Part shown: positions 1,761 through 21,971 of the stretch, piece after piece
Layout of the letters: each line of letters begins with the position of its first letter
Position numbering within the stretch: the first letter of the stretch is position 1
Virus record (IMG/VR): IMGVR_UViG_3300008107_000445
Span: 2,304-24,274 of that record
Source of the DNA: a virus
DNA length: 21,971 nucleotides
Direction: 5' to 3' (one strand)
The notes under the pieces: model-generated
The model's input: the letters and a program-made list of their open reading frames with translations, nothing else
Told to the model about the DNA's origin: nothing
The model's database searches: none
Program-made: the position numbers and the translations under genes

Positions 1761-1762
1761 GT

Positions 1763-2491: not shown

Positions 2492-2513
2492 CGTTTATGG
2501 ATAAATCGAATAA

Positions 2514-2792
2514 TTAACCTTGTGCTTTTTTAGCAATGGTCAATCTGTCAATACAAATCTTAAGAGCACCAGGACCTACATAAGTTGGATTCTGACCTCT
2601 TAAAGATAAAAGACATTCTTCAATTTCTTCCGGTGATATAGCAGGAGCTTCCTCCGCCATATTTACTTTCTTAAGCTGATTGTAGCATATTGCTGCAGCT
2701 TGATCTTGTGGGTATTCATCAGATAATACTGAGATGCAACGACCAATGTATTCGTCACGTGATTCAGTTACTCTTTTAGATGGAATTGGCAT
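2514..2792 (-). CDS. Small protein with MPIP...EYPQDQAAAICY domain
   Basis: This 92-residue protein follows the protease gene with a three-base gap. Its first 40 residues (MPIPSKRVTESRDEYIGRC, then EYPQDQAAAICYNQL) match a short motif I know from phage head genes, where it occurs alone or fused near the prohead protease; its function is not known to me. The pattern is 'MPIP...E....FI.RC.....EYP...R.AICY'. The second half (EEIEECLLSLRGQ, then GPGALKICIDRL) is unfamiliar and probably helical. Its place between protease and scaffold suggests a head-assembly role. There is no membrane segment or signal peptide. Confidence 0.65.
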   Translation of the reverse strand: MPIPSKRVTESRDEYIGRCISVLSDEYPQDQAAAICYNQLKKVNMAEEAPAISPEEIEECLLSLRGQNPTYVGPGALKICIDRLTIAKKAQG

Positions 2793-2795
2793 AAT

Positions 2796-4490
2796 TTATG
2801 ATTTTATTAATTGTTCGCTAAAATAGCCTTCAATTGAAAAGCCTTTAACTAATCCTGGTTTAACGTAGCCTTCCCAAACACCTAAATTATCTACTTTATA
2901 CATTGTCATCCAAGTACCTTCTACTGGATTCAAACCATATTCTTTAGCTTTATCTGTTTCTGGGTTTTCTACAATCCAGCTTTCTACTAGATAAACATCA
3001 TCTACAAGTTCACCTGAATTATGTTCAATGTTAACTCGATCAATAATTTTATCTTTCATTGCCTTATAGGCTAATCTTTTAATTGTATCCTTAGTAAAGT
3101 AAACGTAATATACATCTCCGTTCTCGTCTTTACGTGGGATTAATTTACCAGGTATCATTGCTGGGCCTACAAGAATTTGTTGGTCTTCAACAGCAGCAAA
3201 TCCGTAAGTTGCTTCTTTATTAACTGTTAATTTACCAGTTGGCTCATTTACGTAATTAGGTAAACCAGATACTTCTAATTCAAATTTAACACCAATTGGT
3301 CCTAATTCATTAATTACATCTTGACTATTATCGTAGTGCTTAGTAATACCTAATTTGTTAATAAGTTCAATTTTAGCTTTATTACTTCCTACAGCAAATA
3401 CTTTATTCATAGGAATACCTATTTCAGCCATATTTTCAGCAAATGGTGTTTTATCATTACCTGCTGAAATAACATACACGTCGTATCCTTCAGTAATTAA
3501 TCTACGTGCTAATTCTTTACCACGTTCTGTAGTTAATACCTCGTGATAATCGATTGATACTTTTTCTGCTGCAAACATCATTTGTTCTACCATTTTTTGT
3601 GCAATGATAGATTCTAATATTTGACCAAACTGTTTACGTTTAGGATGTTTAGTAGGCAATAAATCGTAATCGGTAGTATAATTTCTGTTTTGTGGTCTAC
3701 CTTCTTTAATTAAATAAAGGAAAGCATTAACACGAGCCATTGCCCATTGTTTTGCTCCACCACGAGAAGCTACTTCTGGGGAACGTGAAGTGTTATAAGC
3801 ACCCAAACCACGTTGATAAACTGCTTTTAACGCACCTACGTTAGCACCATACCCTAATTTATCTTTATATTTTTCGTTAAATTCGTCTGCTTTCTTCTTT
3901 AATGATTCTTCTGTAGCAGCATCTACTTCAGCACCACGAGTTGTACCTGCTGTACCTCTAGCTGTTCCTTCTCCTTTTGGATCTGGATTTGGTGTATCTG
4001 ATTTTGGTGCTTTAGGTGATTCTTTAACACCACCACGTGGTCCTATTTCAGCAAATTCTTCTCCTGCTTGGCGTAATATCTTTTCTGTCCAAGGTAAAGC
4101 AGCAGGCCCACCCCAAAGTAAATAAGAGATGTACCCGCAAGCATTGTAATCGCGTCTAGTTCTAGCGAGCTCATAATTGTCTTTTTGTCTAATAAGGAAT
4201 GCGCGCATTCTTCTCACGGTATCAAGCGATACAGGTTCGCGGTTGGCCAATTGTTGTGCTCTAATCTTACCTACTTGTGTAGCGCATTTATTACCGGTTT
4301 CTTCATTACGTTTAATGCCTTGTTTGGCTGCTTCAACTGCTGCCTCTGGGTAATCAGTATATGTTTCAGCAAATTTTTCTGCGCTAAATGCAAAGAATTC
4401 TTCTTCAATAGCGGGTTTTTCAACCAATGCCATAGCATCGATTCCTGAAAGAATAGAATCCTCTAAAAGTTCTAATTGTACAATTTTCAT
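2796..4490 (-). CDS. XkdF-type capsid maturation protease with DUF5824-like and HAD-like domains
   Basis: A 564-residue multidomain protein. Residues 1-35 (DSILSGIDAMALVEKPAIEE) and 425-564 form an XkdF-like serine protease: ILVGPAMIPGKLIPR, YYVYFTKDTI, NIEHNSG with candidate catalytic His490, VVESWIVE-like VESWIVENPETDK, GTWMTM, and GFSIEGYF with candidate Ser552. Between them lie a helical domain with GYISYLLWGGPAALPW (about 47-140), a Pro/Gly-rich linker, a DUF5824-like part (AVYQRGLGAYNTS, then QWAMARVNAFLYLI, about 220-265), and a HAD-like Rossmann domain (about 308-395). The HAD motifs read IDYHEVLTT (motif I), VISAGN (motif II), SNKAK (Lys) and YDNSQD (motif IV). The first motif is DxH rather than DxD, so phosphatase activity is doubtful. 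The gene precedes the 92-aa, scaffold and capsid genes, fitting procapsid processing. Confidence 0.8.
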   Translation of the reverse strand: MKIVQLELLEDSILSGIDAMALVEKPAIEEEFFAFSAEKFAETYTDYPEAAVEAAKQGIKRNEETGNKCATQVGKIRAQQLANREPVSLDTVRRMRAFLIRQKDNYELARTRRDYNACGYISYLLWGGPAALPWTEKILRQAGEEFAEIGPRGGVKESPKAPKSDTPNPDPKGEGTARGTAGTTRGAEVDAATEESLKKKADEFNEKYKDKLGYGANVGALKAVYQRGLGAYNTSRSPEVASRGGAKQWAMARVNAFLYLIKEGRPQNRNYTTDYDLLPTKHPKRKQFGQILESIIAQKMVEQMMFAAEKVSIDYHEVLTTERGKELARRLITEGYDVYVISAGNDKTPFAENMAEIGIPMNKVFAVGSNKAKIELINKLGITKHYDNSQDVINELGPIGVKFELEVSGLPNYVNEPTGKLTVNKEATYGFAAVEDQQILVGPAMIPGKLIPRKDENGDVYYVYFTKDTIKRLAYKAMKDKIIDRVNIEHNSGELVDDVYLVESWIVENPETDKAKEYGLNPVEGTWMTMYKVDNLGVWEGYVKPGLVKGFSIEGYFSEQLIKS

Positions 4491-4508: not shown

Positions 4509-6122
4509 TTATCCCGGACCTAAACGTCTGCGTCTATTGATAGCAGCGTTGGCCTGTTGACCAGTAGTTACATCTTGAGCTATAACATAAGCTCTAACTG
4601 GTTCTTGTCTACCTAAATTAAAACCAAATGGTACTCCTGCACCTTGAGTTCCTGGTAAAGCACCTGTAAATCCAGTATTACCAATTGAAGGTGTTCCTGG
4701 TATACTTGGTTTTGAAATAGTACCACCACTACCACCTCCACCTGGAGCAGTAGCTAAAATTTGTTTTGCTTGGTTTGCTGCAGCTAATACAGCAGCAATT
4801 TGTGCTGCGTAGAACAATGGAAATACTAATGCTGCCCCAGGACCTGCTGCTTTAGCAGTTTTTTGTGCAATATCTAAACCTTGAATAAATCCTGTAGCAG
4901 TACCAATAGCAATATCTGCAAGGGCTGCTGCTTTGGATGCTGCGGTTCCCTCTTTAAATAATGAACCTAAGGCTTTAATTGCAGCCGAAGCATTTTGAGT
5001 ATTTAAATTTCGTATTGCTTCTTCAGCATCAGCAATTTTTTGAGCATCAGCTATTCTTTGATCTCCTACTGCTTTTCTTGCGGCTAAATCATCTAAAACA
5101 GCCTGGAATGCTTCAGCGTCTAAATCAGCTTCATAATCAGCTAAGAATTGTGCATCTGAGATACGTTGATCTCTATCTGCTTTTTCTTTAGCAATACGAG
5201 CATCATCATATGATTTAAGTCTAGCTTCTCTATCTTGTAATTCTTTGTTTAGAATATCAAAACGTTCTTGTGCTGCTTTTTCTTCTTCAGCTTTACGTTT
5301 TTCATTAGCGGCCTTTTGAGCTTCAGCTCTATCAGTAATTACCTGGGCTTCAAATATTTGTAATTCTTGTTCTGCTTTCTTTCTTTCCTCACTACCGGCT
5401 TTAAATGAATTAACTCTTTCAGTTAGTAATTTACGTTCTGCTTTTGTCAATTCCTCAAAACCAGCGCCCTGAGCTTTAAGTAGTTTAAGTTGGAATTCAC
5501 TTTCTTTAGCAGCTTCGCCTTGTGCTTTAGCAAATTTTTCCTCTGCTGTTGCTGCTAAACCTACTGCTTCAGCTACCTTAGTAAAGGCATCACTAAAGAA
5601 TTGAGCTACTTGGTTTACTATTTCAAACTTATCTTTTAGAAGTACAATAGCGGCTGTAATAGCACCAATAGCTGCAATGGCAATACCAACAGGTCCCATT
5701 GCTACTTTTAATGCTACACCAAATGCAGTAGTAAATGCTGTAGCAATTTTTTGGGCACCACCAAATTTAGTAATACCTTCAGTTAAATTAACTACCCCAT
5801 CTAAGGTACGTTTAGCACCTTCTGCAAATGCAATAGCACCTAATGCTGCTGCTTCAAATTGTTTTGTATCTTCTTCTGATGCTAATCCTAATCCAATAAC
5901 TGCACCCGCAGCTAGTTCAACTGAACCTCCTAATAAGTTAACAGCACCATCTAAAATTTTAATGGTTGCTTCTTGTTTTTCAAGATTAGAAGTTAATTTT
6001 TCTGTATTAGCACTAGCATTTTGTGAAGCAGCTCCTGTTTGACCTAATGAGTTATTAAGTTGATCAACTGCTGCTGTTGCTTGGGAGGTATTCGCCCCTA
6101 TATTAACTATTGCTTCTGCCAT
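4509..6122 (-). CDS. Tape measure protein (short)
   Basis: This 537-residue protein has the make-up of a tail tape measure protein. The Ser/Ala/Gln-rich N-terminal helix (residues 1-55) is followed by hydrophobic helices at about 58-82 and 137-162 (ALKVAMGPVGIAIAAIGAI). A long charged coiled coil spans about 195-370 with a repeated DQRI(S/A)DAQ unit at 318 and 354. A hydrophobic Ala-rich helix spans about 425-455, then a Gly-rich linker (APGGGGSGG) and a short C-terminal domain with VRAYVIAQDVTTGQQANAAI, an ending I associate with Bacteroidota phage tape measures. Such proteins set tail length and help DNA pass the membrane. The gene sits after the hub/adhesin gene, inverted relative to most siphophages, where the tape measure comes first. 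A shared upstream motif precedes it. Confidence 0.75.
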   Translation of the reverse strand: MAEAIVNIGANTSQATAAVDQLNNSLGQTGAASQNASANTEKLTSNLEKQEATIKILDGAVNLLGGSVELAAGAVIGLGLASEEDTKQFEAAALGAIAFAEGAKRTLDGVVNLTEGITKFGGAQKIATAFTTAFGVALKVAMGPVGIAIAAIGAITAAIVLLKDKFEIVNQVAQFFSDAFTKVAEAVGLAATAEEKFAKAQGEAAKESEFQLKLLKAQGAGFEELTKAERKLLTERVNSFKAGSEERKKAEQELQIFEAQVITDRAEAQKAANEKRKAEEEKAAQERFDILNKELQDREARLKSYDDARIAKEKADRDQRISDAQFLADYEADLDAEAFQAVLDDLAARKAVGDQRIADAQKIADAEEAIRNLNTQNASAAIKALGSLFKEGTAASKAAALADIAIGTATGFIQGLDIAQKTAKAAGPGAALVFPLFYAAQIAAVLAAANQAKQILATAPGGGGSGGTISKPSIPGTPSIGNTGFTGALPGTQGAGVPFGFNLGRQEPVRAYVIAQDVTTGQQANAAINRRRRLGPG

Positions 6123-6125
6123 GTA

Positions 6126-6158
6126 AATAAATACTTTTTATGTAGTTTTAGTCTTTTA
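6126..6158 (-). promoter_or_regulatory. Shared bipartite motif before tape measure gene (candidate promoter)
   Basis: On the minus strand TAAAAGACTAAAACTACAT, four bases, then AGTATTTATT lies directly before the tape measure ATG. A near copy (16 of 19 plus 10 of 10 bases, spacer five) precedes the chaperone-like gene at 13281-13314. It includes the stop codon of the preceding gene. Function is inferred from recurrence and place. Confidence 0.45.
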
Positions 6159-9100
6159 ACTTATTTGATCTACTGTTACAATTAGAGAAGGAATAGCTGG
6201 ACCAGCAAATGGTGAAGCATTATATTCAATAGTAGTTCCCGCAGTATCACTGGCCCATCTTAATTCAAAATAATCATTTGTAGAGGTAGTAATACCAAAG
6301 AAGTTCCAGGCTGCTACCGTAGTTGCACCTGAACCTCCTGCAATAGTTACCTCAGTATTTGAGTTAGCAACGTTTGTTCCGTTTTTAGCTAACCAAGTAC
6401 ATACTTTAACATCACCACCAGTGTTTTTCTTATATTGGGCTGAGAACTCAATATTATAAGTTCCTATTCTATTTGGATAAATCTTAGTACCAGATATAGT
6501 AACACCACCTGTAATATCAACTGTATTAAGTGACATTGAGTAAGGTGTATTTGCTAATGATGCTGATTGGTCTGTAGTATCGTAGAATGAACCAAAATGT
6601 TTAGTATCATTATTTAATGTTACCCAGTTTGAACCACTAGCAGCATATAAAGTGACTACCTCATTTGGATTACTAAAGATAAATCTACCATTACCATTGA
6701 TAGTTTGTGAACCAAATGGAACAATCTCTACAGTAGTAGAACCATCAAATGAATCATCGCTTACAAATGTGTAAATAATTTTCTTATAATCATTGTTTAC
6801 AGCATTAGGCAAAGTAATTTCTGTAGTACCTGGTGAAACTCCACTCCAATTTAAATGGAAAATATGATCGTGTTTGTATTGAGTATCTGATAAATCAAAT
6901 GTTACAGTATCACCACAATCTAGTAATTTATTATTACTAAATAAGGCTTCACCAATGTATGTGTCACCTAACCAGTTTGAGTTATTGCGAGTATCAAGTA
7001 AATCTAACCCAGCTCCCTCTAAATTAAGACCAATTACAGTATGACCTGAACCATTGATTACTACCTCATTTTCGTGTGGGGTAATTAATGTAGTTACATC
7101 ACTATCTTGTAATGTAGCATTGTATCCATTAATAATTGTAGTGTAATCTCCGTTAAATATTGTTGAACCCGTACTAGTAAGGATAGCATTATTTACATTA
7201 AAACTACCTGAGATAGCATTTCCACTACCACCAACAATTTGGTTATTAACCAGGGTTTCAGTAATAGAGTTTTCTTGACCTACAACAAAAGCATTAGTTA
7301 CGTTTTGAGAGACATTATTAGCTCTACCCATAACATAAACTGTGTTGGTGCTAGATTCTACAATATTATTACTACCAATAGTCATGATTCTAGCTGAATC
7401 AGGATTTACTCTATTAGTACCTAAAGAAGATTGTTGTAAAGCTGGAGTAATTGGTTCAGCATAGTTCCATACTACAGAACCCGAATCAGATCCTGTTAGG
7501 TAAACTCTTAAACCATCTTGTTGACCAGCTTGAGATAAACCTGAGTAATCATCAAATGGAATTCCATCATCATAAGTTACGTATCTACCTCCACCATTTG
7601 GATTGTATCCTCCAAAAATAATATCAACTGAAATGCCTAATGATGTAGTTACTCTTCTACGAGGGAAGGTTAATTTACGAGCTGGTGTTTTGATTAATTC
7701 TACTTCAACTGAATCTCTACGAGTTAGGTTAGCTCCATTAATCTTGTTTATGCGGTAATAAGCTCCATCAATAAAGATTTTATCATTAAGAGCTATATCT
7801 TGTATTTCAGTTGGTTTTAGATAAACATTACAAACTAATTTACGAGCGTCAATATCATATAAACCATTGATATAAGGAGCCCAATAAGTAGTAAACGCAT
7901 CCCCACTACCACTAATAAAATTAGCACCATTAGGAACTACATTACTCCAGTAAGGAGGAATAGCTCCTTTACCTACGTTATTGTTGTTAAAATGTAAATC
8001 AAGTGCTGCTCCTGAAATAGGGGTTTCACTTAATGATGATACTTGGTACCAAACACTTTGTCTAGTGGTAACTCCATTTTCATCTAATAGCCAGTATGAA
8101 CCTGTAGTAAAAGCACTACCTGAATATCCTGCAGCTGCTGATTCTACAGTTTTCAAACCTACACCATACAATAATCTAGGTTTAAAAGCTAATGGCTGGT
8201 AAGTATTATTACTACCCACTACCTTAGTACATAAGTGAGGAATAATAAATTCTGATGAGTTTGGAATATTTGTAGTTGGGGTTGAAGCAAATACTTTACC
8301 AATTACTCTTTCACCCTCAGCTAAATCAGAATCTGAAGTATAAATGTATTGACCGTATGAGGTATCAAATGTTTCTCTAGTGTATAAGTTTAGATAATCA
8401 TCGTCATCCTCATCTTTAAAAATAATAGTACGAGGTTGTTCTAAAATAGGGTGTGAGATATTAAAACGAGTATCTCTATCAACCTTATCAGTCCAGTCAA
8501 CTACAACTCCTTGGTCTGTCCAATCACTGTAAGGTTCAATTCTAAGTAGGTTTCTTTCATTAGGTACTGGTTCAACAACTAAATTAAATTTCTCAATTAG
8601 TCCTTGAAGTAAATCTAATGCCTTTAAATCATCAGGAAATTGTTGTTGTATATTAACTGTACTACCTACTACAGTTGTAGGACCTTGTATTGATACAAAT
8701 GTATTTAAAATACCAGGTAACAGTGTTAAAGTTTGATTTGAATCCCCATCTCTTAATTGAACATAGAATTCAATGTAATCACCTGGATTTAAACTAATAT
8801 TTCCTGAATAAGTTAATGTATTACTTGAGGCATAAGGATTTACACGAGTACCTGCTAAAATAGGGAATCCACCACCATTTAATCTAACATAAACATTTAC
8901 TTTAGTTTCAGGCTCATCAGCCCAGTTATTAACATTAAATCTAATTTGACCCTGGAATCTGTAACTACCTGAAACATCAGCAGTATAAGCATTAGTTGTT
9001 AAATTAAAATTACCTGCGTTATCGTATGATGTTCCAGTAAAATCAATTTCAGTAGCAATGTTATAAGGAACATTTTGAGTAGTTGGTGGATTAGCAAATA

Positions 9101-9908
9101 CCCAACAGTTTTGTGAAATTGGGTTTTGCGAACTAGGTCCTAATGTATCATCTGCTGTTGTAAGTAAGTACAAATTATTAAAATAAGCACTATTAAAGAA
9201 TGATGAAGTATAATTGTACCCCACATTACTTTCAGTATATGAACCAGAGAAAATAACATCAATTACGTCTCTAATTTTAATAGCTGGTTTAAAATCAAAT
9301 AAACGTAATGGTGTATCGTAATTATCAATTGTATTATCTAAACCAGCTGCAACGTTTAATCCAGCAAATGCATAGTTTGGTGTTGATAAGTCACTCTCAG
9401 GTTGACCATAATTGATATTAGGGTAAATAATTGAACCACTAAATAAATTACCATACCAAGAACCAGTTACATTAGCTGCTGTGAGCAAGTGATCGTACTG
9501 GCTAAAATCAAATTTAGGATCAGTTAATGATAAATTTTGAATACGATATTTAAAGTCAATTACCTCATTTAGTACTACAACATTATAATATGTGTAACCT
9601 AATTGGTCTGTAGTAACATCTTTAATGTATAATTTACCATTAAATACTTGTTGACCGTCAGTTAAAACTTGACAGTTAATACTGTTAACTAATGCTACAG
9701 CGGGTGTAGCTCCTAAGTTATATAGGTTACCAAAAAATTGATTTGCTTCATTAGTACCAGGTATAGAAAATTCCTGAGAAGAAACCCCAAATGTAGTTCC
9801 AATCTCAGCGTTTTCAATAGCTGAGATGTCTAATCTAAGGTCAATATCCTCTTGAACTTGTAAATCAGCTACAAGTCCTTCATCATTGGTACAACGTAAT
9901 ATTATCAT
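6156..9908 (-). CDS. Tail hub / receptor-binding protein with C1q-like and beta-helix modules
   Basis: A 1250-residue tail protein with a mosaic build. Residues 1-220 (SSQEFSIPGTNEANQFFG, VFNGKLYIKD) and 425-740 (DLLQGLIEKFNLVVEPVPN, LRIEPYSDW, then WTDKVDRDTRFNIS) resemble the hub-like tail proteins of Bacteroidota phages. They are interrupted at about 282-410 by a jelly-roll-like domain (GSYRFQGQIRFNVN, VNVYVRLNGGGFP, LNPGDYIEFYVQLRDGD). Residues about 840-970 contain short strand repeats with Asn/Gly turns (IGSNNIV, VMGRANNVS, VVGQENSI), like YadA-type head or beta-solenoid repeats. The last 145 residues form a second C1q/TNF-like domain (GTYNIEFSAQYKKNTGG, VAAWNFFGI, YFELRWASD). These suggest a baseplate/tip protein with host-binding ends. 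Its start overlaps the previous gene as ATGA. An alternative is two ancestral genes fused. Confidence 0.7.
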   Translation of the reverse strand: MIILRCTNDEGLVADLQVQEDIDLRLDISAIENAEIGTTFGVSSQEFSIPGTNEANQFFGNLYNLGATPAVALVNSINCQVLTDGQQVFNGKLYIKDVTTDQLGYTYYNVVVLNEVIDFKYRIQNLSLTDPKFDFSQYDHLLTAANVTGSWYGNLFSGSIIYPNINYGQPESDLSTPNYAFAGLNVAAGLDNTIDNYDTPLRLFDFKPAIKIRDVIDVIFSGSYTESNVGYNYTSSFFNSAYFNNLYLLTTADDTLGPSSQNPISQNCWVFANPPTTQNVPYNIATEIDFTGTSYDNAGNFNLTTNAYTADVSGSYRFQGQIRFNVNNWADEPETKVNVYVRLNGGGFPILAGTRVNPYASSNTLTYSGNISLNPGDYIEFYVQLRDGDSNQTLTLLPGILNTFVSIQGPTTVVGSTVNIQQQFPDDLKALDLLQGLIEKFNLVVEPVPNERNLLRIEPYSDWTDQGVVVDWTDKVDRDTRFNISHPILEQPRTIIFKDEDDDDYLNLYTRETFDTSYGQYIYTSDSDLAEGERVIGKVFASTPTTNIPNSSEFIIPHLCTKVVGSNNTYQPLAFKPRLLYGVGLKTVESAAAGYSGSAFTTGSYWLLDENGVTTRQSVWYQVSSLSETPISGAALDLHFNNNNVGKGAIPPYWSNVVPNGANFISGSGDAFTTYWAPYINGLYDIDARKLVCNVYLKPTEIQDIALNDKIFIDGAYYRINKINGANLTRRDSVEVELIKTPARKLTFPRRRVTTSLGISVDIIFGGYNPNGGGRYVTYDDGIPFDDYSGLSQAGQQDGLRVYLTGSDSGSVVWNYAEPITPALQQSSLGTNRVNPDSARIMTIGSNNIVESSTNTVYVMGRANNVSQNVTNAFVVGQENSITETLVNNQIVGGSGNAISGSFNVNNAILTSTGSTIFNGDYTTIINGYNATLQDSDVTTLITPHENEVVINGSGHTVIGLNLEGAGLDLLDTRNNSNWLGDTYIGEALFSNNKLLDCGDTVTFDLSDTQYKHDHIFHLNWSGVSPGTTEITLPNAVNNDYKKIIYTFVSDDSFDGSTTVEIVPFGSQTINGNGRFIFSNPNEVVTLYAASGSNWVTLNNDTKHFGSFYDTTDQSASLANTPYSMSLNTVDITGGVTISGTKIYPNRIGTYNIEFSAQYKKNTGGDVKVCTWLAKNGTNVANSNTEVTIAGGSGATTVAAWNFFGITTSTNDYFELRWASDTAGTTIEYNASPFAGPAIPSLIVTVDQIS

Positions 9909-11260
9909 ATTCTTGGATTCTTTTGATTAGCTGGCTGGAATGTTATAACGTACTGGAATGTCTTTTGAGTACGTGGGTTTGTTTTTTCAATTGTTTCTGC
10001 ACTAGTAATATAAACAGGGAAAAATTCATTTCCACTCTGTACAAAAACATTAGTTGAAAAGAATAATTCTTTCAACCAATCAGCCTCGGCTTGTGTTAGC
10101 CAGTTAGTATTAGCTGTTTGGTTTTGAGTTAATTTATTATAGAAATCAACTGTACCACGTCTTTCTTTATTGTATGGGGCTGTTGTATTAGCTGAACCAA
10201 ATGGAACAAATGTTTGAGAATATTTTTCTCTTTCAATTGTATATGCTGAATCACTTTGTAGGGTAAATGTGTAATAATCCCAAACACCAAATTCGTTTTT
10301 CCAAGCAAATCTAACTCCATCATATCCGCATTGTGCTCCTTGTTTTACAAATTTAAGTGAAGCATAAACACCAGATGTATTGATTACTCCTGCTGATTGT
10401 TGTCCTAATGCTGTAACTATATAATAAGCCCAGTTTGAGGATAAAGTATCACCATTATCAGCTAAGTTTTGTGGACCTATTCCTACTGTAAGTAATTGAG
10501 TACCTGCTGTTTGGTTTGCTGCTACAGCACTCCATACTTGAACACCATTTGCTCTAGGACCTCCTCCATTAGAAACTAAATTAGATAAATCAACATCATC
10601 TAATAATGTACCTGCTGCATCATAGGATTTTATATTTACAGCATAAATGTCTTGTGCTGCGGTTGTAGAACCGTTAAAATTTCCGTTAAATAACGAGATA
10701 GTTGCGTATTCACCATCCTGTATGCTTTGAGTAAGTGGTGCGTTAGTTAACGTGTATTGTTTTGAAAAAGTAGTAGTAGTAGAAACAGCTGAACCTGTAA
10801 AATAAGATGCTGATGGAAAGTTCCAGTTTACCTTATCGTAAGGATCAACTAAACCATTAGCAATATAGTAATATGAAGAACCAGTTAATGCTGGACTACC
10901 TGTAATAGCTGCTATACCACTGTAAAGTACAATTGAACTAGATACTGAGGTAGAATATTCTTCACCAAATTTTACACTAAAACGTCTACCAGCTTGGCTA
11001 GCAGTAGCAAATGGGGCGGCTTTCCAAACATTATCATTATCTAAGTAATTAGAAACAATTTGACCTAAATCAAATATACCATTACCAAATGGGTTAGGTT
11101 GTTGTTTGATACGTTGTAAAACAGTATTAGATCCACTTAATGTCAAATCACACACATATTGGTATTGTGGGGCTGAAGCTGAATTAGAAGTAATGGTAAA
11201 TAGCAAATTATTATTTGCCATGTTAGGTGACGTTGGTTGTTGATGTAATGTTATTGCCAT
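9905..11260 (-). CDS. Tail tip-like structural protein
   Basis: A 451-residue, Ser/Thr/Asn/Gln-rich, beta-prone protein between the neck genes and the hub protein. The N-terminal part (ITLHQQPTSPNMANNNLLFTI, then QYVCDLTLSGSNTVLQRIKQQ and NPFGNGIFDLGQIVSNYL) and the C-terminal part (VRFAWKNEFGVWDYYTFTLQS, QTFVPFGSAN, WLTQAEADWLKELF, FFPVYITSAET) follow a pattern I recognise from tail proteins of Bacteroidota phages, where 'W.NR.G..D.YTF' precedes a cluster ending in an 'L..L..S..V' helix. It may be a distal-tail or tip protein, but no precise homologue can be named. It overlaps the hub gene by ATGA, indicating translational coupling. No cleavable signal is present. Confidence 0.6.
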   Translation of the reverse strand: MAITLHQQPTSPNMANNNLLFTITSNSASAPQYQYVCDLTLSGSNTVLQRIKQQPNPFGNGIFDLGQIVSNYLDNDNVWKAAPFATASQAGRRFSVKFGEEYSTSVSSSIVLYSGIAAITGSPALTGSSYYYIANGLVDPYDKVNWNFPSASYFTGSAVSTTTTFSKQYTLTNAPLTQSIQDGEYATISLFNGNFNGSTTAAQDIYAVNIKSYDAAGTLLDDVDLSNLVSNGGGPRANGVQVWSAVAANQTAGTQLLTVGIGPQNLADNGDTLSSNWAYYIVTALGQQSAGVINTSGVYASLKFVKQGAQCGYDGVRFAWKNEFGVWDYYTFTLQSDSAYTIEREKYSQTFVPFGSANTTAPYNKERRGTVDFYNKLTQNQTANTNWLTQAEADWLKELFFSTNVFVQSGNEFFPVYITSAETIEKTNPRTQKTFQYVITFQPANQKNPRI

Positions 11261-11261
11261 C

Positions 11262-11780
11262 TTAATTACCGTTTAATCCGGGTGTATTATTTATGTTTAA
11301 TTGTATGTTTCTGTCTAAATCAATAGCTACGGCGTTTGCTAATTGACCGCTGTTTATATACTGTTCTCTAACGGCATTTAACGCAGGTTCAATAAATGGT
11401 CTTGCACGTTTAAAACGTTGACCTTGTTTTCCTATATTATAAGCAATAGCCCAAGCAAATTGTTCGACAGATTTAAATTGTTTAGGTACTGAGATTCTTT
11501 TTTGTTTAACCCACTGTACTATATCTTGTACTGGTGGTTGTTTTCCTTTACCTCGTTCTGCTCCATCATCAACATATTCACCATACTTTAACATTGTAAC
11601 TGGAACAACAATAGATGTTTGAGTTACGCGAGCAGGTTGTACTTTAATAGAATTGGCTAATCTACCTGTAACGTTACTACCATTTTGAGTTAATTTAAGA
11701 ATTGCCTCTTCCTTATAGGAATTAGCAATCTTAGTTAACTCTTCAGTAGTAGCTAAATATTCAACAGGTATAAGTGCCAT
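11262..11780 (-). CDS. HK97 gp10-like neck / tail-completion protein
   Basis: A 172-residue protein with the pattern of the HK97 gp10 family (head-tail connector/tail completion): an N-terminal helix (EELTKIANSYKEEAILKL), then TGRLANSIKVQPARV, the strand-turn VVPVTMLKYGEYVDDGAERG, and the C-terminal ARPFIEPALNAVREQY. The order 'tG.LanSI......Y..yvd.G.........RPFi.pAl' is characteristic. Length is in the usual range. The protein is expected at the connector-tail joint. It starts one base after the stop of the 156-aa gene and ends one base before the next start, so it belongs to the tail operon. The last 20 residues, Asn-rich, are probably disordered. Confidence 0.75.
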   Translation of the reverse strand: MALIPVEYLATTEELTKIANSYKEEAILKLTQNGSNVTGRLANSIKVQPARVTQTSIVVPVTMLKYGEYVDDGAERGKGKQPPVQDIVQWVKQKRISVPKQFKSVEQFAWAIAYNIGKQGQRFKRARPFIEPALNAVREQYINSGQLANAVAIDLDRNIQLNINNTPGLNGN

Positions 11781-11781
11781 A

Positions 11782-12252
11782 TTATCCGTTTTGTGCTAAT
11801 GAAGGGAATGCACAGTAATCTAGTACTGCGATGTCTGTATAATTTAAAACAGCAACCCAACCATATGCTCTATCATTGAATGCCTCATCTACTGGAGTGA
11901 TGTTTTGTAGAGTAATGAATTCGGTTTGTTGTTGTGAACCTAAGTTAAAATACGAGATAATATCGTAAATGTATTGTTCAGTATTTGATTTAATTTGTAC
12001 TGGTGATGCATCCTTTAAATTAGGCACATCCAATGAGTACATTTCAAATGTTAAAGTACGAGTACCTGAAATACCATTTGCATTTAAATTAATTCCAGGT
12101 GAAGTTAGTGGGCGTAAAAATATGTAAGGGTATTTTACATTTTGAGAACTAGCATCTAAGTAATCAAGAGCACCTTCAGCAAACGATTTGATTGCTAGAT
12201 GTTCAGCACAAGATGCTGAGAATTCATTTACTATTTCTTTGTATGTTTTCAT
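11782..12252 (-). CDS. Probable tail-terminator / neck protein
   Basis: A 156-residue protein next to the gp10-like gene. Visible features are an N-terminal helix (YKEIVNEFSASCAEHLAIKSF), a strand with YPYIFLRPLTSPG, then RTLTFEMYSLDVPNL, a helix (SNTEQYIYDIISYF) and the C-terminal strands ITPVDEAFNDRAYGWVAVL. This alternation, with a central 'Yp..f' strand and a 'D...GW' end strand, resembles the minor tail/terminator proteins that follow gp10-like proteins in siphophages and myophages, and is common in Bacteroidota phages without a name. It overlaps the preceding 62-aa gene as ATGA. The role is inferred from neighbours and predicted fold, not from a catalytic motif. Confidence 0.6.
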   Translation of the reverse strand: MKTYKEIVNEFSASCAEHLAIKSFAEGALDYLDASSQNVKYPYIFLRPLTSPGINLNANGISGTRTLTFEMYSLDVPNLKDASPVQIKSNTEQYIYDIISYFNLGSQQQTEFITLQNITPVDEAFNDRAYGWVAVLNYTDIAVLDYCAFPSLAQNG

Positions 12253-12437
12253 AATCCTTCTTCTTCAGTGAACATTGGATCAATGTCTAACTTAGGGGTA
12301 CTTTTTTTAACAATGGGAGCACAAGTACCAGCATCAAGAATATCTTGAAGAGTTTGTTTACTTGTCATTTGGATAGCTGCGATTTGATTTAGATTATATC
12401 CTTCAGCTATCATTCCTAAAATTTGTTCTCTTGTCAT
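12249..12437 (-). CDS. Small helix-turn-helix-like protein
   Basis: A 62-residue protein beginning MTREQILGMIAEGYNLNQIAA. Its first 35 residues read as a helix-turn-helix ('qIlgmIaeGynlnqIAai...tkqTLqdIL'), followed by a short basic and then acidic tail (KKSTPKLDIDPMFTEEEGL). I do not recognise a family. Its ATG overlaps the stop codon of the -1 frame of the chaperone-like gene (ATGA), and its own stop overlaps the start of the 156-aa gene, so it is translationally coupled on both sides. It could be a DNA-binding regulator or a small tail accessory protein; the sequence does not decide. Confidence 0.6.
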   Translation of the reverse strand: MTREQILGMIAEGYNLNQIAAIQMTSKQTLQDILDAGTCAPIVKKSTPKLDIDPMFTEEEGL

Positions 12438-13275
12438 TTTATTTTATAAGATTGTAATTGTCTATTTTGTTCTCTTTGGGCCATACTATTCTGATCTTGT
12501 TCAAATGCTAAATAATTAAGAACAAATATAAAATTTAGGTCAGTAATGGCTTTGTCTCCTGTAATTGAAAGGATGGAAGTTTTTGAGAGGTGATGAATTG
12601 TAGCAAACCATCCCCAATGGCTGGAGAACCTGCTTTGCTCAGAGTCTTGATCTTCTCCATCTCCTTCTTGACTTTGGGGTTTAAAGATAGATTGGTACTT
12701 ATTAAGAGTGTGTTTGTTAGTACTAAAAAAAAACCTAATGCACCTAATGCAAATGCTACTGGTAGTCCCTTCATTATTTGAGCTTGTTCAGCTCGTTTTT
12801 TGGAATCATATTTTTCTAATGTATAGTACTGGAATAGGTTTTCTACATTACCAGTACCTACTTTGTATTTTGATTTTATAGCCCACGTAATACCATTAAA
12901 TGAATGTTTTTTAATTGGGCGATAAAGTAATGCCATTATCTCCTCAATGTTGATAGATGGATTTTTATTTAATTTTTGTAAATCAACATACTCACTAAGT
13001 GCCATCTTAGAGATAGAAGAGTAACCATATAGCTGACCATTAACCTCTATAATTGGATAGAATGAAGGTTCTACACTACTTAATTGTTCTAATATAGCAG
13101 AATAAACATTTGTAACATCTACTGGTCTTAATGACATAATAGTATCTTCTGGAATGTCAGTAGCGTAAGCAATAAACTTAAGCATCTTCTCATTATCGTT
13201 TTCCATTTCTAACGATTGAAAATACTTCCAGTCTTTAATACTTAAATAATCAGGTAAGTTAAACTTTAATTCCAT
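12434..13275 (-). CDS. Tail assembly chaperone-like protein, long form made by -1 frameshift
   Basis: Reading residues 1-184 in the first frame and slipping back one base at T TTT TTA (12724-12730) gives a 280-residue protein. The 96-residue extension starts STNKHTLNKYQSIFKP, has an acidic stretch (SQEGDGEDQDSEQ), then SRFSSHWGWFATIHHL and the helix TDLNFIFVLNYLAFEQDQN. The 'f..kWGW..ti..L..........vl.......LnyLaye.dkn' pattern is what I expect in the full-length form of this Bacteroidota phage family. The extension ends at TGA (12434-12436), which overlaps the ATG of the next gene as ATGA, the coupling seen across this operon. Without the shift, 97 bases before the next gene would be an unexplained gap. 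The role is inferred by analogy with lambda G/GT. Confidence 0.7.
12535..13275 (-). CDS. Tail assembly chaperone-like protein, short form (no frameshift)
   Basis: Read without slippage, the gene gives 246 residues. Common N-terminal pieces are MELKFNLPDYLSIKDWKYFQ, a helical ENDNEKMLKFIAYATDIPED, LNKNPSINIEEIMALLYRPIK and MKGLPVAFALGALGFF. The 'aLLYRPi ... lpv..alGal.FF' pattern fits a family of unnamed proteins in Bacteroidota phage tail clusters. The hydrophobic stretch at 171-192 is probably a buried helix rather than a membrane anchor. The C-terminal 62 residues (VLTNTLLISTNLSLNPKVKK, then a helix and a polar tail) exist only in this form. The gene is the first after a strong terminator and a candidate promoter, so it likely opens the tail operon. 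Confidence 0.72.
   Translation of the reverse strand: MELKFNLPDYLSIKDWKYFQSLEMENDNEKMLKFIAYATDIPEDTIMSLRPVDVTNVYSAILEQLSSVEPSFYPIIEVNGQLYGYSSISKMALSEYVDLQKLNKNPSINIEEIMALLYRPIKKHSFNGITWAIKSKYKVGTGNVENLFQYYTLEKYDSKKRAEQAQIMKGLPVAFALGALGFFLVLTNTLLISTNLSLNPKVKKEMEKIKTLSKAGSPAIGDGLLQFITSQKLPSFQLQETKPLLT
12724..12730 (-). promoter_or_regulatory. Candidate -1 frameshift site T TTT TTA
   Basis: The minus strand has nine T followed by A; in the gene's frame it reads GGT TTT TTT TTA GTA, so T TTT TTA is in the exact X XXY YYZ phase. The -1 frame is then open to 12434. A weak 5-bp stem (GTACT/AGTAC) can form just downstream. Polymerase slippage on the T-run would give the same product. Confidence 0.68.
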
Positions 13276-13320: not shown

Positions 13321-13361
13321 AAAAAACCCCCCTGCGTAAATGTCACTAAACCACAGGGGGG
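13321..13361 (-). terminator. Strong intrinsic terminator before the tail operon
   Basis: On the minus strand CCCCCCTGTG pairs with CGCAGGGGGG (one G-T) around a 15-base or longer loop, followed directly by TTTTTT. It is 80 bases past the stop of the 66-aa gene. The intervening 13362-13440 is AT-rich with no coding or RNA gene I can support. Confidence 0.85.
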
Positions 13362-14157: not shown

Positions 14158-15426
14158 TTACATTCCCATCCCCCATTTTACTTTAGTGGCCTCATTCATT
14201 TTAGGGCCACCAACATAAAGGGATGATTTACGCAAAGCTATTTTTTCTCTAGCTTCATTTGCTAACATTAAAGACATTACACAGTCGTCGTGCGTACCAC
14301 TGGGTGCATTAAATGTTAATAAACCATTGGCATTTACCTTATAGGAATATGCTTCCAGTTCTTGTTTTAGGTGTGGGAATAATTCCTCACTGGGTAATTC
14401 CAATTCACCATTTTGTATTTTGTAAATTAGATTACGAATACCTTGTGCTTTATTCTCGTTTGTAGTATAAAATTCCTGTGTTACTCTAATCTCAGATTTG
14501 ATTAGTTCAAACATAGGACGCCCCACCCCGTTTGTTTCAACGAAACCACCAGAAACGGAAAATCGTCTGAGTTCAGTAACGAAAGTTTTTCCAATGTCTT
14601 CATATAGTTGTCCGTTAATTCTAATAATTTTAACGACTCTTCCTGATTCATCGATGATAGTGAGGACAGAGTAGTCGTTAGTGAGCCCAATATCTGCTCC
14701 GAAATAATATCGTTTATTCTTTGTTGGTACATCCCAGTTTCTAATATTACATACAAAATCTACTCCCGTAAATACGTCATTACCTGAATCAGTAAATTCA
14801 GCTAGATATTCTTGACGGAATATGCTATCAGGAAGTGTTTTGCTTTGTTCGTTAATAAAATTTACATCTATATGCGGATTATCTGTTGATATACCGCGGA
14901 ACGAAACATAATCACTATCTTGGTCAAGCCCTCTTAAGTAAGCGCTATAAAACCAATTTTTAGATTTTGGTGTAGAGATAATTAAACATTTTTTTCCGAG
15001 TGCTGATAGTGTTGGGAGGATTGCCTCGTTGACTGCTTGCTCGGCCACAAAACTAGCCTCGTCGATAATAACGTAGTTGAAGCTAAAACCGCGTATACTG
15101 TCTGGTCGTTCGCTCGACAAAAATATAAGAGTAGAACCATTGATAAACTCAATAGTAAGTTCAGCTTTATTAGATTTAGAAATAATTTGATGTGCTGCAT
15201 TAGTTAATTCTTGGAATACCTTTCGGCATTGATTGTACACTGGAGAGATCCAACAACCTTTTTGTCCTTGATTTCCCAATAACCAATACAACATTAGATT
15301 TTGAGCTAATAAACTCTTACCATATTGTCTGCCAGTAGCAACTACCCCAAATTTATGGGGTGAATCAGCAAAACCATTTATAACCTTAAGTTGCCCCGGA
15401 TGTGGGGTAAACAACTCTACATTCAT
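14158..15426 (-). CDS. terL: Terminase large subunit
   Basis: A 422-residue protein with both expected domains. The N-terminal ATPase has Walker A VATGRQYGKSLLA (residues 29-41, Lys37), Walker B YVIIDEAS (118-125, Asp122-Glu123) and a coupling motif ISTPKSKN (150-157). The C-terminal RNase-H-like nuclease has YFGADIGLTNDYSVL (Asp245), GGFVETNG (Glu297) and GTHDDCVMSLMLA (Asp380/Asp381), giving the three acidic clusters. It pumps and cuts concatemeric DNA at the portal. Length is near the usual 420-550. It overlaps the small subunit gene by ATGA-type coupling at 15423-15426. There is no intron or intein. Confidence 0.93.
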   Translation of the reverse strand: MNVELFTPHPGQLKVINGFADSPHKFGVVATGRQYGKSLLAQNLMLYWLLGNQGQKGCWISPVYNQCRKVFQELTNAAHQIISKSNKAELTIEFINGSTLIFLSSERPDSIRGFSFNYVIIDEASFVAEQAVNEAILPTLSALGKKCLIISTPKSKNWFYSAYLRGLDQDSDYVSFRGISTDNPHIDVNFINEQSKTLPDSIFRQEYLAEFTDSGNDVFTGVDFVCNIRNWDVPTKNKRYYFGADIGLTNDYSVLTIIDESGRVVKIIRINGQLYEDIGKTFVTELRRFSVSGGFVETNGVGRPMFELIKSEIRVTQEFYTTNENKAQGIRNLIYKIQNGELELPSEELFPHLKQELEAYSYKVNANGLLTFNAPSGTHDDCVMSLMLANEAREKIALRKSSLYVGGPKMNEATKVKWGMGM

Positions 15427-16119: not shown

Positions 16120-16375
16120 CTTCTATAACTGGGGTTTCTAATATAACTAATCTATCTTTTAGGGCTTGTTCGAATTGCTGGTAAGTATTATTTGCTATTT
16201 TTGAGTGAGCAACCCATTCACACGTACAACCTGGTTTGTCCCAATGACCCTTTAACAATTGTAATGCCTTAACATGCCAATCTATCCAATTTGAGACTTT
16301 ACCATAATCTCTAATTCGGTTATAATCATTCAATAACCATTCTATATCCTGTTTACTTAAATTATCTACGTTCAT
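16055..16375 (-). CDS. Unknown CxC protein with basic RGRGR tail
   Basis: A 106-residue protein. The first part is helical (DNLSKQDIEWLLNDYNRIRD), then WIDWHVKALQLLKGHWDKPG, a CTCEW motif and KIANNTYQQFEQALKD. The end, EKRGRGRSKKDSGEK, is Arg/Lys-rich and AT-hook-like. Only two close Cys are present, with His residues nearby (WHV, GHW), so a small metal site is possible but not shown. It overlaps the GIY-YIG-like gene by four bases (ATGA) at its start and the next gene by 65 bases at its end. Its function is unknown to me. Confidence 0.55.
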   Translation of the reverse strand: MNVDNLSKQDIEWLLNDYNRIRDYGKVSNWIDWHVKALQLLKGHWDKPGCTCEWVAHSKIANNTYQQFEQALKDRLVILETPVIEDELPTVEKRGRGRSKKDSGEK

Positions 16376-16614
16376 TTTTTCTTTCGTTTATTGGTCATTC
16401 GTTTTACTTTGTGATATGCTTTCTTATCAACTGGGTATCCGTAGAATTTTTGATATTCGATTTCCTTCTCTCCTGCTCGTTTAGCTGATGTTTCGGTTTC
16501 AATTATCTTTAATTCCTCTAACCCATATTGTTTTGCTCTTCGTTTTGGATTATCAGTTACCCCTATTTTTTTACCTTCTATGTGGTAAATAAAATATTTT
16601 GGGTCTTTACTCAT
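16372..16614 (-). CDS. Small GIY-YIG-like protein
   Basis: An 80-residue protein with FIYHIEGKKIGVTDNPKRRAK (8-28), which fits the 'Y.I......YIG.T.n...R' core of GIY-YIG domains in a reduced form. This is followed by a TETSAKRAGEKEIEYQKFYGY helix, matching the position of the Glu-bearing helix, and a Lys/Arg-rich end. The first motif is degenerate (YHI for GIY, KIG for YIG), as in many small phage proteins where the 'DNLKRR' and 'A...E...Q...GY' features are kept. Nuclease activity is therefore uncertain. It overlaps the membrane protein gene by eight bases and the following gene by four. Confidence 0.62.
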   Translation of the reverse strand: MSKDPKYFIYHIEGKKIGVTDNPKRRAKQYGLEELKIIETETSAKRAGEKEIEYQKFYGYPVDKKAYHKVKRMTNKRKKK

Positions 16615-18280: not shown

Positions 18281-18985
18281 TTATATTGAATCTCTTTTTA
18301 ATGCTGTTTTTACCATTTGGTGAATATCATTTAGATTAATTCCTAAAGCACGAGCTATATTAACATTTTTCATTCCTGATTTCTTTAGTCTAGCAATTTC
18401 AGGGTATAAATGAGAATGTTTTGATTCACTAATTTTTCTACCTTCTCCTAATTTTAATTTAGGGCCTATCATATTATGTTTGCTATAACCTATATTTTCC
18501 TTACGTGTTACCCACATTAAATTCTCTATTGAATTGTTTGAGGTATCAAGGTCAATATGGTGACATTCCATATTAGACTCAGGTGCTGGACCTTTAAATG
18601 CTGTTAGGATAAAACGGTGAAGATAAATTGCTTTTCTTACACCATTTTGATAGGGCTGAACAATCCAATATCCGTTTTTAAGTGTATAAGTGGGACGTAA
18701 TTGTAAAACGCGTTCTTTACCTGTTTTAATTGCGCTAGGTGTACCTCTAGTATCACGCCATACTTCACCATTTGGTCTTACGTAATATGTTGGAAAATTA
18801 GGTACTGCAATAGCATCTAAAGGTAATTCCTCATGGGTATAATCGTCTAATTTTCTCCATTCATCTTTAGCAGTAAATTTTTCAGGGTGTTTATTTCTGT
18901 AATCTTTAGAGGCTAATCTTCTATATTCTTTAAGATTGGTTTTGTGTAAATGAGCGTAAGGACGTTTGTTTTTCATAGTTGACAT
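18281..18985 (-). CDS. Free-standing HNH endonuclease with C-terminal HTH
   Basis: A 234-residue protein. A basic N-terminal region (NLKEYRRLASKDYRNKHPEK) precedes a NUMOD4-like segment (AVPNFPTYYVRPNGEVW, about 60-76). The HNH core follows: YLHRFILTAFKG, then ECHHIDLDTSNNSIENLMWVT (His142/His143, Asn151, Asn155). The end has a helix-turn-helix, YPEIARLKKSGMKNVNIARA then LGINLNDIHQMVKTAL, suited to sequence-specific DNA binding. This is the build of phage homing endonucleases that spread by cutting genomes lacking them. It stands alone between a terminator and the sigma-like operon, with its own candidate promoter. The first ATG (MSTMKN) fits the shared CAAATGTCA context; MKN four codons in is the alternative. 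Confidence 0.85.
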   Translation of the reverse strand: MSTMKNKRPYAHLHKTNLKEYRRLASKDYRNKHPEKFTAKDEWRKLDDYTHEELPLDAIAVPNFPTYYVRPNGEVWRDTRGTPSAIKTGKERVLQLRPTYTLKNGYWIVQPYQNGVRKAIYLHRFILTAFKGPAPESNMECHHIDLDTSNNSIENLMWVTRKENIGYSKHNMIGPKLKLGEGRKISESKHSHLYPEIARLKKSGMKNVNIARALGINLNDIHQMVKTALKRDSI

Positions 18986-19140: not shown

Positions 19141-19893
19141 TTATAATCCGTAAACTGATTTATTAGCATTAAAGTTTTGAAGTACTTCAGAATCTGATAA
19201 AGCAGCTGTGTATACTCTAGTTAATCCTAATTTTCCTTTTAAATTAAATCCACCACCAGGAAGATTACCAATTAAAAGAGGGAATGTTGAATCAGATATA
19301 CTTGTAGCAGTAGTTGCAGTAGAAGTGCTTATAATAGAACCATTTTCATAGAATCTAATTTTATAATCCCCACCATAATTCCAAGTAGCAACATAATGTT
19401 TCCAAGTACCTGTAGATATTGTTATATTTGCAGTTTTAACATTAGTAAAATCTTGGATCCAAGCTTCAAATTTCTTTTGGGCTTGAGTCATATCAAGTCT
19501 CATAGCGTATCTAGCAAAAGGAGGAGACCAAGTTGATGCAGCTTGTTTAGTTATTAAGTGTGAGAAACCAGTATTAATATCTGCGACTGTAAATACTTCC
19601 ATAGTTACACCACTAGATGCATCTAATGTAGCAGCATCAGCAACAGTTACTACATTATTATTTACTGTTGTACCAAAATTAAAATAGCTAGGAGTTCCTG
19701 ATACAAAAGTTGGTCCTGATATAGTACCATTATTTCCATTAGGAGATAAATCAGTCCATGTAGTTCCACTTCCTGGGTAAGAAGTTGAGGAATTAGCATC
19801 TAAATAAACAGCTAAATTAGCAGTTACATAAGCAGGTCCGACTGCTCCAGCTTCTGGTTGTTTAACAAATGCAAATGGTGTAAAAAACGACAT
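19141..19893 (-). CDS. LamG/concanavalin-like adhesin
   Basis: A 250-residue protein. After a short N-terminal tail (MSFFTPFAFVKQPEAGAVGP) the body is a LamG-like jelly-roll: LAVYLDANSSTSYPGSGTTW, then DLSPNGNNGTISGPTFVSG, TMEVFTVADINTG, GTWKHYVATWNYGG, IRFYENGSIIST and the ending LGLTRVYTAALSDSEVLQNF. The 'YLDa..s.SYpGsGttWtDLSgNgNnGt' and 'g.....vY..aLs..Ev..NfnA.k..yg' patterns are typical of carbohydrate-binding fibre proteins of aquatic phages. It probably forms part of the fibre or tail tip and binds host glycans. Its ATG overlaps the fibre stop (TAATG), so the pair is co-translated and likely co-assembled. A terminator follows. Confidence 0.78.
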   Translation of the reverse strand: MSFFTPFAFVKQPEAGAVGPAYVTANLAVYLDANSSTSYPGSGTTWTDLSPNGNNGTISGPTFVSGTPSYFNFGTTVNNNVVTVADAATLDASSGVTMEVFTVADINTGFSHLITKQAASTWSPPFARYAMRLDMTQAQKKFEAWIQDFTNVKTANITISTGTWKHYVATWNYGGDYKIRFYENGSIISTSTATTATSISDSTFPLLIGNLPGGGFNLKGKLGLTRVYTAALSDSEVLQNFNANKSVYGL

Positions 19894-21971
19894 TAAATTA
19901 AGTTTTTAACGTTACTTAAGTATAAAGTTGTATTATCAAATGAGATAAATGTTACAATATCAACTCCAGTAGTTGTAGTTGGTACGTAAGCTGAACCAGA
20001 TGCTTGTTTAACTGAAGTTGGGAAACTTACAGTACCTGAACCTGTTGTATTAACTCTTAAATTAACTGTTTGACCTGGTAAAATATTACTTGGGTTAATA
20101 TAAGTGTTGCTTCCACTTACAAGTTGTAGTGTAAAGAAATTACCTTTACTTAAATCTATTGAGGCTGTATTGCTTGAAATACTTAAGGCATCTACATTAC
20201 CTCTAACTGAACCTGTTAATTCTAAACTACCTGTAAATCGAGAGTTTCCATTTACTGTTAAGCTACCTGTAAGAGCTGTAGTTCCGTGAACTCTTAAACT
20301 TCCGGTAGCTACGAATCCTGTAGCTGAGCCTGAATCTGCAAAATTAGCAGTACCCCATAATCTAACATTATTTTCTTGGAATGTTGAATCTTGATAAGCT
20401 GCAATATGTCCAGGACCAGCAGATTGTCTAGCCATTACAATTCTGTAAGTAGTACCTCCTGCTTCCATACCAGCACCAATACCAGCATTGAGACCTCCAG
20501 AGAAATTATTAATTACATAATCTCCTAAAAGTTCTACTTGGTATCCTACACCAGGTTCTAAAGTATCTCCTTGACCTAAACTAATCCTAGGAGTTCCTCC
20601 AGTTGTTGAAGCTCCAACTGATCCTGTAATTCCTAAACTTCCAGTAATTTGAGCAGATCCTGTATATGGAAAAGCACTACCACCACCTCCACCAGGAGCA
20701 TATGAGGCACTTAAAGCAAATAAAGCATAAGAAGCTGTAGTAGCTGTATTTGCTGAACCCGCGTTGGTTGCATAAGATGCTGAAGTTGAAGTATTAGCTG
20801 TAGTAGCAAATGATGCTGAAGTTGCGTTTACTACGTTGTTAACTGTAACTGCTTCTGTAGTACCATCACCTTGGTTAAAAGTAATAGTAGCGTTGTTAAC
20901 TGACGAGCTAACATAGAATGAACCAGTATTAATTGGATCAACATTAAGAGCATAAGATGCTGTAATTGCATTATCTGCGTTTAAAGCATGTGATGCTGAA
21001 GTTGCCGTAAGAGCACTATTTGCTGTATTAGCATTAGTTGCAAATGAAGCACTTATAGCATTATCTGCATTAACTGCATGTGAAGCTGAAACAGCAGTAG
21101 TTGCACTGCCTGCTGAACCTGCTGTAGTAGCATAAGAGGCTGAAGTAGCTGTAGCTGCAGTAGTTGCGTAAGAAGCAGTACCAGTTAAATTACCTGTAAT
21201 TCCAGCAGATACATTTAATGAACCTGTAATAAGTACAGGACCATTTTTCATATCTACAGTACCATAAAGTGTTTGAACATCATTTGATGCGTCACCAAAT
21301 TGGTTAGAACCTGAAGAATAGATTACTGAGGCAGTTTCGTATATTGTCTCTAAGTAAGTAATACTAGCTGATAAAGCTGTTAAAGTACCACTTACAGTAA
21401 AGTTATTAGCATATGAAGCGGTCTGGGCTGTTATAGCATTATCTGCGTTTACTGCGTGTGAAGCACTTATTGCGGTAGTTGCACTTCCGGCACTTCCAGC
21501 AGTTGTAGCATATGAAGCACTTGTAGCAGTAACCGCGCTATTTGCTGTTGAAGCATTTTGGGCATACGAAGCAGATGTTGCTACACTAGCAGAATTTGCG
21601 TTTACTACGTTATTAACTGTAATATTAAATGTGCTTGCATCGCCTTTAGTAAATGTAATAGTAGCATCGCTTATAGACGCGGTTACTAATAAACTACCTG
21701 TTGGTGTAGCAGTAGCTGAACCTGTATCAACTGTTAAGTTAAATGTTGAACCATTACCCTTAGTAAATGTTAAAACATTACCAGTAGCACTACCAGTAAC
21801 CATTAATGAACCTGTATCAACAGTTGCACCAGCATTCAAAGCATAAGAAGCAGTTACAGCATAGCTTGCAGAAATAGCATTATCAGCATCTTCAGCATGT
21901 GAAGCACTTGTAGCAGTAGCTGCACTATTAGCACTTGTTGCTGTTAAAGCATAAGAAGCACTAATTGCATT
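19893..21971 (-). CDS. Tail fibre protein with SASYATTA repeats (5' end outside window)
   Basis: The frame is open from the right edge (first codon AAT at 21971) to TAA at 19893, 692 residues, so the gene's start is outside the window. Two thirds are made of Ala/Ser/Thr repeats of the form 'TSASYAttAgSAgSATTA.SASHAvNADNAI', alternating with fibre strand modules (TGSATGNVLTFTKGNGSTFNL, TGSLLVTASISDATITFTKG). The region from SAFPYTGSAQITGSLGITGS to the end carries trimeric-fibre-like strands and a beta-rich tip (NFFTLQLVSGSNTYINPSNI then LPGQTVNLRV). Such repeats form long trimeric stalks. The gene ends in TAATG with the LamG gene. The TTG at 21839 is not needed as a start. Confidence 0.8.
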   Translation of the reverse strand, partial: NAISASYALTATSANSAATATSASHAEDADNAISASYAVTASYALNAGATVDTGSLMVTGSATGNVLTFTKGNGSTFNLTVDTGSATATPTGSLLVTASISDATITFTKGDASTFNITVNNVVNANSASVATSASYAQNASTANSAVTATSASYATTAGSAGSATTAISASHAVNADNAITAQTASYANNFTVSGTLTALSASITYLETIYETASVIYSSGSNQFGDASNDVQTLYGTVDMKNGPVLITGSLNVSAGITGNLTGTASYATTAATATSASYATTAGSAGSATTAVSASHAVNADNAISASFATNANTANSALTATSASHALNADNAITASYALNVDPINTGSFYVSSSVNNATITFNQGDGTTEAVTVNNVVNATSASFATTANTSTSASYATNAGSANTATTASYALFALSASYAPGGGGGSAFPYTGSAQITGSLGITGSVGASTTGGTPRISLGQGDTLEPGVGYQVELLGDYVINNFSGGLNAGIGAGMEAGGTTYRIVMARQSAGPGHIAAYQDSTFQENNVRLWGTANFADSGSATGFVATGSLRVHGTTALTGSLTVNGNSRFTGSLELTGSVRGNVDALSISSNTASIDLSKGNFFTLQLVSGSNTYINPSNILPGQTVNLRVNTTGSGTVSFPTSVKQASGSAYVPTTTTGVDIVTFISFDNTTLYLSNVKNLI
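21061..21153 (-). repeat. Fibre stalk repeat, copy A
   Basis: Encodes SASYATTAGSAGSATTA then VSASHAVNADN. It aligns without gaps to 21439-21531, giving the same residues apart from Val/Ile after ATTA, while many codons differ, including three Ser codons switched between TCA and AGT. Confidence 0.75.
21439..21531 (-). repeat. Fibre stalk repeat, copy B
   Basis: Encodes SASYATTAGSAGSATTA then ISASHAVNADN. The partner of 21061-21153; further shorter units of the same kind fill the stalk up to the window edge. Confidence 0.75.

Follow-up and report, generated by a model that had tools for sequence, protein, structure and literature searches.

The stretch of DNA analysed here (the window) comprises 21,971 nt of IMGVR_UViG_3300008107_000445, an IMG/VR virus record of 24,274 bp. 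On its minus strand lies a gene that starts with the ATG at 13275 and that, read in the zero frame, encodes 246 amino acids up to a stop at 12535. This gene carries a run of nine Ts (T9, 12733-12725 on the minus strand) followed by an A at 12724, with the heptamer T TTT TTA in phase at 12730-12724 (minus strand). The -1 frame holds 96 open codons with an HWGWF motif and ends in a TGA (12436-12434) that overlaps the ATG of the next gene (12437-12435) as ATGA; between the zero-frame stop and this ATG there is a gap of 97 nt. The initial annotation had described the T tract, the open -1 frame, the WGW motif, the ATGA overlap and a 97-base gap after the unshifted stop, and all of them were recovered at the same positions, the gap again measuring 97 nt. 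The coordinates of the gene parts and of the genes that anchor the locus are given in Table 1.

Table 1. Recoded gene and anchoring genes in the window
Feature	Position	Strand	Support
Large terminase subunit, anchoring the conserved order upstream	14158..15426	-	PHROG 2, E 6e-53
N-terminal half, 184 aa, common to both products	12724..13275	-	AF2, alignment A3, hhalign
T9 slip tract GG T TTT TTT TT A, recoding site	12725..12733	-	92/92 IMG/VR junctions, 34/37 genome loci
-1 frame C-terminal half, 96 codons, HWGWF, long product only	12434..12724	-	Translation, alignment A4, AF2
Zero-frame tail of the short product, 62 codons + stop, dual-coded with the -1 frame	12535..12723	-	Stop counts
Following gene (62 aa) with a weak match of helix-turn-helix type; its ATG overlaps the -1 stop	12249..12437	-
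Neck / tail-completion protein, downstream anchor	11262..11780	-	PHROG 5, E 2.6e-8; phrog_29822, E 0.0013
Probable tape-measure protein, sixth gene after the recoded gene	4509..6122	-	PHROG 1533, E 3e-5

Separate AF2 runs on the two halves, rather than on the fused protein, predicted a mostly helical N-terminal half with a small beta hairpin (pLDDT 85.5) and a C-terminal half composed of helices (pLDDT 70.5); the corresponding alignments contain 60 rows (A3, N half) and 59 rows (A4, C half). Just upstream of the gene lies a GC-rich hairpin (13327-13361, minus strand) with Ts at 13326-13321, which resembles a terminator or attenuator and for which a 76-nt stretch has a minimum free energy of -29.6 kcal/mol (z -3.4). 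Elsewhere in the window, a small GIY-YIG-like protein (16372-16614) and an HNH-endonuclease-like protein (18281-18985) were recognized by eye from the translations only, and the translation of 19893-21839 reads as a probable tail fibre with many ATSASYATTAGSA-type repeats.

Relatives and conservation of the T tract

IMG/VR relatives were gathered by protein similarity and their 92 distinct frame junctions were compared as 129-nt segments. Among the first relatives (33-98% identity per half), each of the 46 junctions has a run of exactly nine Ts in an identical phase, behind which the C-terminal half continues in the -1 frame, far above what chance would give. All 92 distinct junctions likewise consist of exactly T9 in one phase and have their C half in -1; an A follows the run in 68 of them and a G in 24. 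A first scan of bacterial genomes with the close alignment gave no matches; the broad profiles A9 and A10 led to prophages in Bacteroidota genomes, where 34 of the 37 loci examined combine T9 with a C half in -1, one combines ten Ts (T10) with halves in frame, and two are weak distant matches without a tract. Counting T9 and T10 together, the tract is present at all 92 IMG/VR junctions and at 35 of the 37 genome loci. One Bacteroidota family has the gene in 28 of 101 species genomes, and a scan of 376 Flavobacteriales genomes with profile A10 returned no match. The programmed switch into the -1 frame that the initial annotation had proposed for joining both halves is borne out by these relatives: the same nine-T junction recurs in all 92 IMG/VR junctions, and no close homologue lacks the -1 frame, which all of them conserve. 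From sequence comparison we conclude that the recoding is real and ancient.

No member of the close family was found in the INPHARED phage collection. Foldseek with the predicted N half led to the cultured Nonlabens phage P12024S, whose gp38 and gp39 correspond to the two halves (hhalign E 2.7e-9 for N and 2.9e-4 for C); the T9 that joins them is read as CTT TTT TTT TAT, a codon phase different from that in the window, and the C half again lies at -1. P12024S/L therefore share with the gene in the window homologous halves, T9, the -1 relation and the gene order, and differ in the phase of the tract and in being annotated with two hypothetical genes; in PHROGs, the halves of P12024S form phrog_32199 and phrog_38404, two families of unknown function. 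A fold search of the PDB gave no match above noise. More distantly, four relatives (L253 and, from Bacteroidota genomes, L247, L248 and L249) carry both halves in one frame without a T tract, and gp10 of Flavobacterium phage 6H is a distant fold match (E 1e-4, TM 0.32; weak homology) with a -1 open frame behind it, differing in that it appears to use T TTT TTC, with just six Ts. A match in Campylobacter phage A11a (E 0.08) was rejected, as it falls on the strand opposite an mnmG-like bacterial gene of an unverified record; the peptidase-like L239 was rejected as a chance match, and L245, whose contig ends before the site, was left out.

Clusters whose N halves are <40% identical include T9 in each of the three codon phases, and T10 as well. 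The first phase (NNT TTT TTT TTR) is the dominant one, with 41 of 49 clusters (<60% identity), the second (NTT TTT TTT TNN) is found in P12024S, L235 and L238, and the third (TTT TTT TTT) in L250; neither T8 nor T11 was seen among the tracts compared. Position T1 of the run is always T, though it is the third base of seven codons (AGT, GGT, TCT, ACT, GCT, AAT and GAT). With clusters taken as independent, log10 P for this invariance is -15 (50 clusters) or -7 (24 clusters), and -9.8 for 15 clusters, again taken as independent, from mixed-GC genomes in which TTT makes up just 55% of Phe codons. Outside the site, coding-strand T runs of at least nine occur only twice in 622 kb of loci. As judged from these alignments, it is the length of the T run that is conserved, rather than the heptamer T TTT TTA by which the initial annotation had defined the site, a definition that the tracts kept in three codon phases and the in-frame T10 alleles do not support.

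A scan for a ten-T pattern, which is biased towards T10 and gives no estimate of its frequency, retrieved three distant relatives: L214 (T10, C half in -1) and L232 and L220 (T10, halves in frame). The unbiased search contributed L271, a T10 copy that may reflect an assembly error; three of these four T10 cases hence stem from the biased pattern search. L271 lies in genome G1572 together with a second prophage, L278, that is ~85% identical around the gene; L278 has T9 and the -1 relation, L271 has the halves in frame, and in L271 the short-form frame is still open with the same stop. L232, L220 and L271, and more distantly L247-L249, are the homologues with both halves in one frame that the initial annotation had advised to look for. 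L280 (G1572:C6) and L281 (G1572:C4), two related prophages of genome G1572 with T10 and T9 alleles, differ in their flanks.

A zero frame kept open behind the site

In every IMG/VR cluster, at least 180 nt behind the site are free of zero-frame stops, a feature that the initial annotation had missed. Across 59 codons in 23 clusters we counted no zero-frame stops versus 53.3 ± 4.8 expected from synonymous recoding of the -1 frame, while the third frame was not open (163 stops versus 189 expected); the clusters in these counts are partly dependent through shared ancestry. Genome clusters (n = 18) gave 2 zero-frame stops versus 20.7 ± 3.4 expected, and 93 versus 78 in the third frame. The N half, tested likewise, had no comparable depletion of stops. 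Zero-frame stops so far below the recoding expectation argue that openness is selected, i.e. that the zero frame is open for 189 nt beyond the site through selection and not by accident, and the counts indicate that ~190 nt are read in two frames. We dropped the further claim that the zero-frame tail is conserved as protein sequence: its excess similarity over recoding has a counterpart of like size in the third frame.

Mechanism of the frame switch

Programmed transcriptional slippage, in which RNA polymerase rather than the ribosome slips at T9, is in our judgment the best explanation and a probable one. Since T9 occurs in three phases and T10 alleles are in frame, slippage by RNA polymerase fits better than a heptamer. 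Runs of nine As or nine Ts are efficient slip sites for bacterial polymerase, and nine is the run length at which the coding regions of many genomes begin to show avoidance (PMC5009743, PMC1088944); the nine As of Yersinia tssM3 give 15-25% slippage (PMC4256274), and E. coli polymerase slips more on T runs than on A runs (PMC6260861). Two products would thereby come from one start. Most transcripts would carry the templated nine Us and yield the 246-aa short form, consisting of the N half and the 62-aa zero-frame tail. A fraction of transcripts would gain one U when RNA polymerase realigns the nascent RNA on T9, and their ordinary translation would enter the -1 frame and give a long form of ~280 aa, composed of the N half, FFF (FFL under a ribosomal slip) and the helical C half with its WGW. 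In the phages with in-frame T10 the default would be reversed, with the long form made by direct reading and the short form when one U is lost; from T10, the short form is attainable by such a loss and not by a -1 ribosomal shift.

Thermus dnaX, Shigella mxiE and Yersinia tssM3 resemble the present case in having about nine A/T in the coding sequence, where frames are joined or split to give two functional products. The present case differs in concerning a phage structural gene, in a tract kept family-wide in three phases, in the long dual-coded tail, and in that slippage is deduced.

The observations that count against polymerase slippage are those that favor programmed -1 ribosomal frameshifting on the tandem heptamers T TTT TTT and T TTT TTA/G, which would resemble lambda G/GT and operate without a stimulator. 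Every T9 tract holds an in-phase T TTT TTT or T TTT TTR, the dominant phase (41/49 clusters) has tandem perfect heptamers, the IMG/VR runs are without exception followed by A or G, and the distant relative 6H appears to make do with the six Ts of T TTT TTC. Moreover, every T9 case puts the C half at -1, as polymerase slippage would predict only if insertions dominate, and ribosomal frameshifting is established for other tail chaperones (PMC5009743). On the other hand, six or seven Ts suffice for the ribosome, and T TTT TTA takes up just the final six of the run, yet nine are kept in every phase with T1 invariant, and the in-frame T10 alleles would require the opposite shift. No downstream signal of pseudoknot-free RNA folding was found (mean z ~0 at +5 and +10; z +1.0 at the site of the window alone), and Shine-Dalgarno (SD)-like motifs precede 2 of 24 starts as counted at gene starts. 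Bacterial frameshift sites commonly, though not always, have a stimulator, either RNA structure downstream or an SD upstream. Few SD-like sequences are expected in Bacteroidota hosts. We regard ribosomal frameshifting as a less likely alternative, and consider it more doubtful still that polymerase and ribosome slip jointly on one tract to set the ratio, a reading in which T9 would suit both machines but which is less economical. We infer both the part of the polymerase over that of the ribosome and the product ratio.

Phase variation at the DNA level, with the tract toggling during replication between T9 (short form only) and T10 (long form only), could account for the T9 and T10 prophages found together in genome G1572, but it is very improbable given that T9 is present in all 92 IMG/VR junctions with no variation in length, that the zero-frame tail is kept open, and that neither T8 nor T11 was observed. 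Homopolymers are error-prone in sequencing, yet an error of sequencing or assembly in the run that leaves just one frame real, the objection raised in the initial annotation, can be practically dismissed, as the run is of equal length in independent contigs, bacterial genomes, the isolate P12024S and metagenomic relatives, and both frames are under selection.

Gene order and a putative role in tail assembly

The genes are arranged in the order terminase, recoded gene, small proteins, neck protein, two large genes, tape measure and prohead protease. The same order is found in the Bacteroidota prophage L284 and, up to the tape measure, broadly in P12024S, whose gp42 is phrog_29822. Both frames, the tract length and the gene order are conserved. 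The initial annotation had considered the distance from the tape measure an oddity of this phage; the tape measure is the fifth gene after the recoded gene in L284 and is likewise apart in P12024S, which makes the distance a family trait. Tail genes (4509-13275) precede the protease and capsid-like genes (1-4490) in the order of transcription, unlike in most tailed phages.

The architecture, with two nested products in a tail block, points to a role as a tail chaperone. As in lambda gpG/gpGT, there are one start and two products, the longer with a C-terminal domain from the -1 frame, in a tail gene block; such nested products would come from -1 recoding in the first ORF, with the C half in -1 and both frames under selection. 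Unlike lambda, there is a nine-T tract in place of a heptamer, the gene follows the terminase and is at least five genes from the tape measure instead of directly before it, and the zero frame continues for ~190 nt behind the site. In SEA-PHAGES genes with programmed frameshifts, this extension has a mean of 26 nt (PMC10885494). The gene also differs from lambda in matching no chaperone family in Pfam, NCBIfam or PHROG, and Foldseek matches to annotated chaperones were weak (E 0.02 and 0.8). The short and long forms are probably tail-assembly chaperones that work as a pair in the manner of gpG/gpGT: the N half would bind the tape measure, and the C half that only the long form has would recruit tail-tube subunits.

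Frameshifting in tail chaperones is textbook ribosomal recoding, and we found no papers in the open-access literature that describe transcriptional slippage as the source of a phage tail chaperone. Gene callers break the recoded protein in two or cut it short, as illustrated by the halves of P12024S that sit in two PHROGs families. On balance we think it probable that, throughout a broad Bacteroidota lineage of phages and prophages, the tail-chaperone pair is made by programmed slippage of RNA polymerase on T9, with the ratio set by the RNA-DNA hybrid of the polymerase and not by the ribosome, the tract in three phases, T9 giving the short and T10 the long form by default, and the short form bearing a selected, dual-coded tail. 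If true, RNA polymerase would perform a step ascribed to the ribosome, in phages of hosts that rarely use Shine-Dalgarno sequences.
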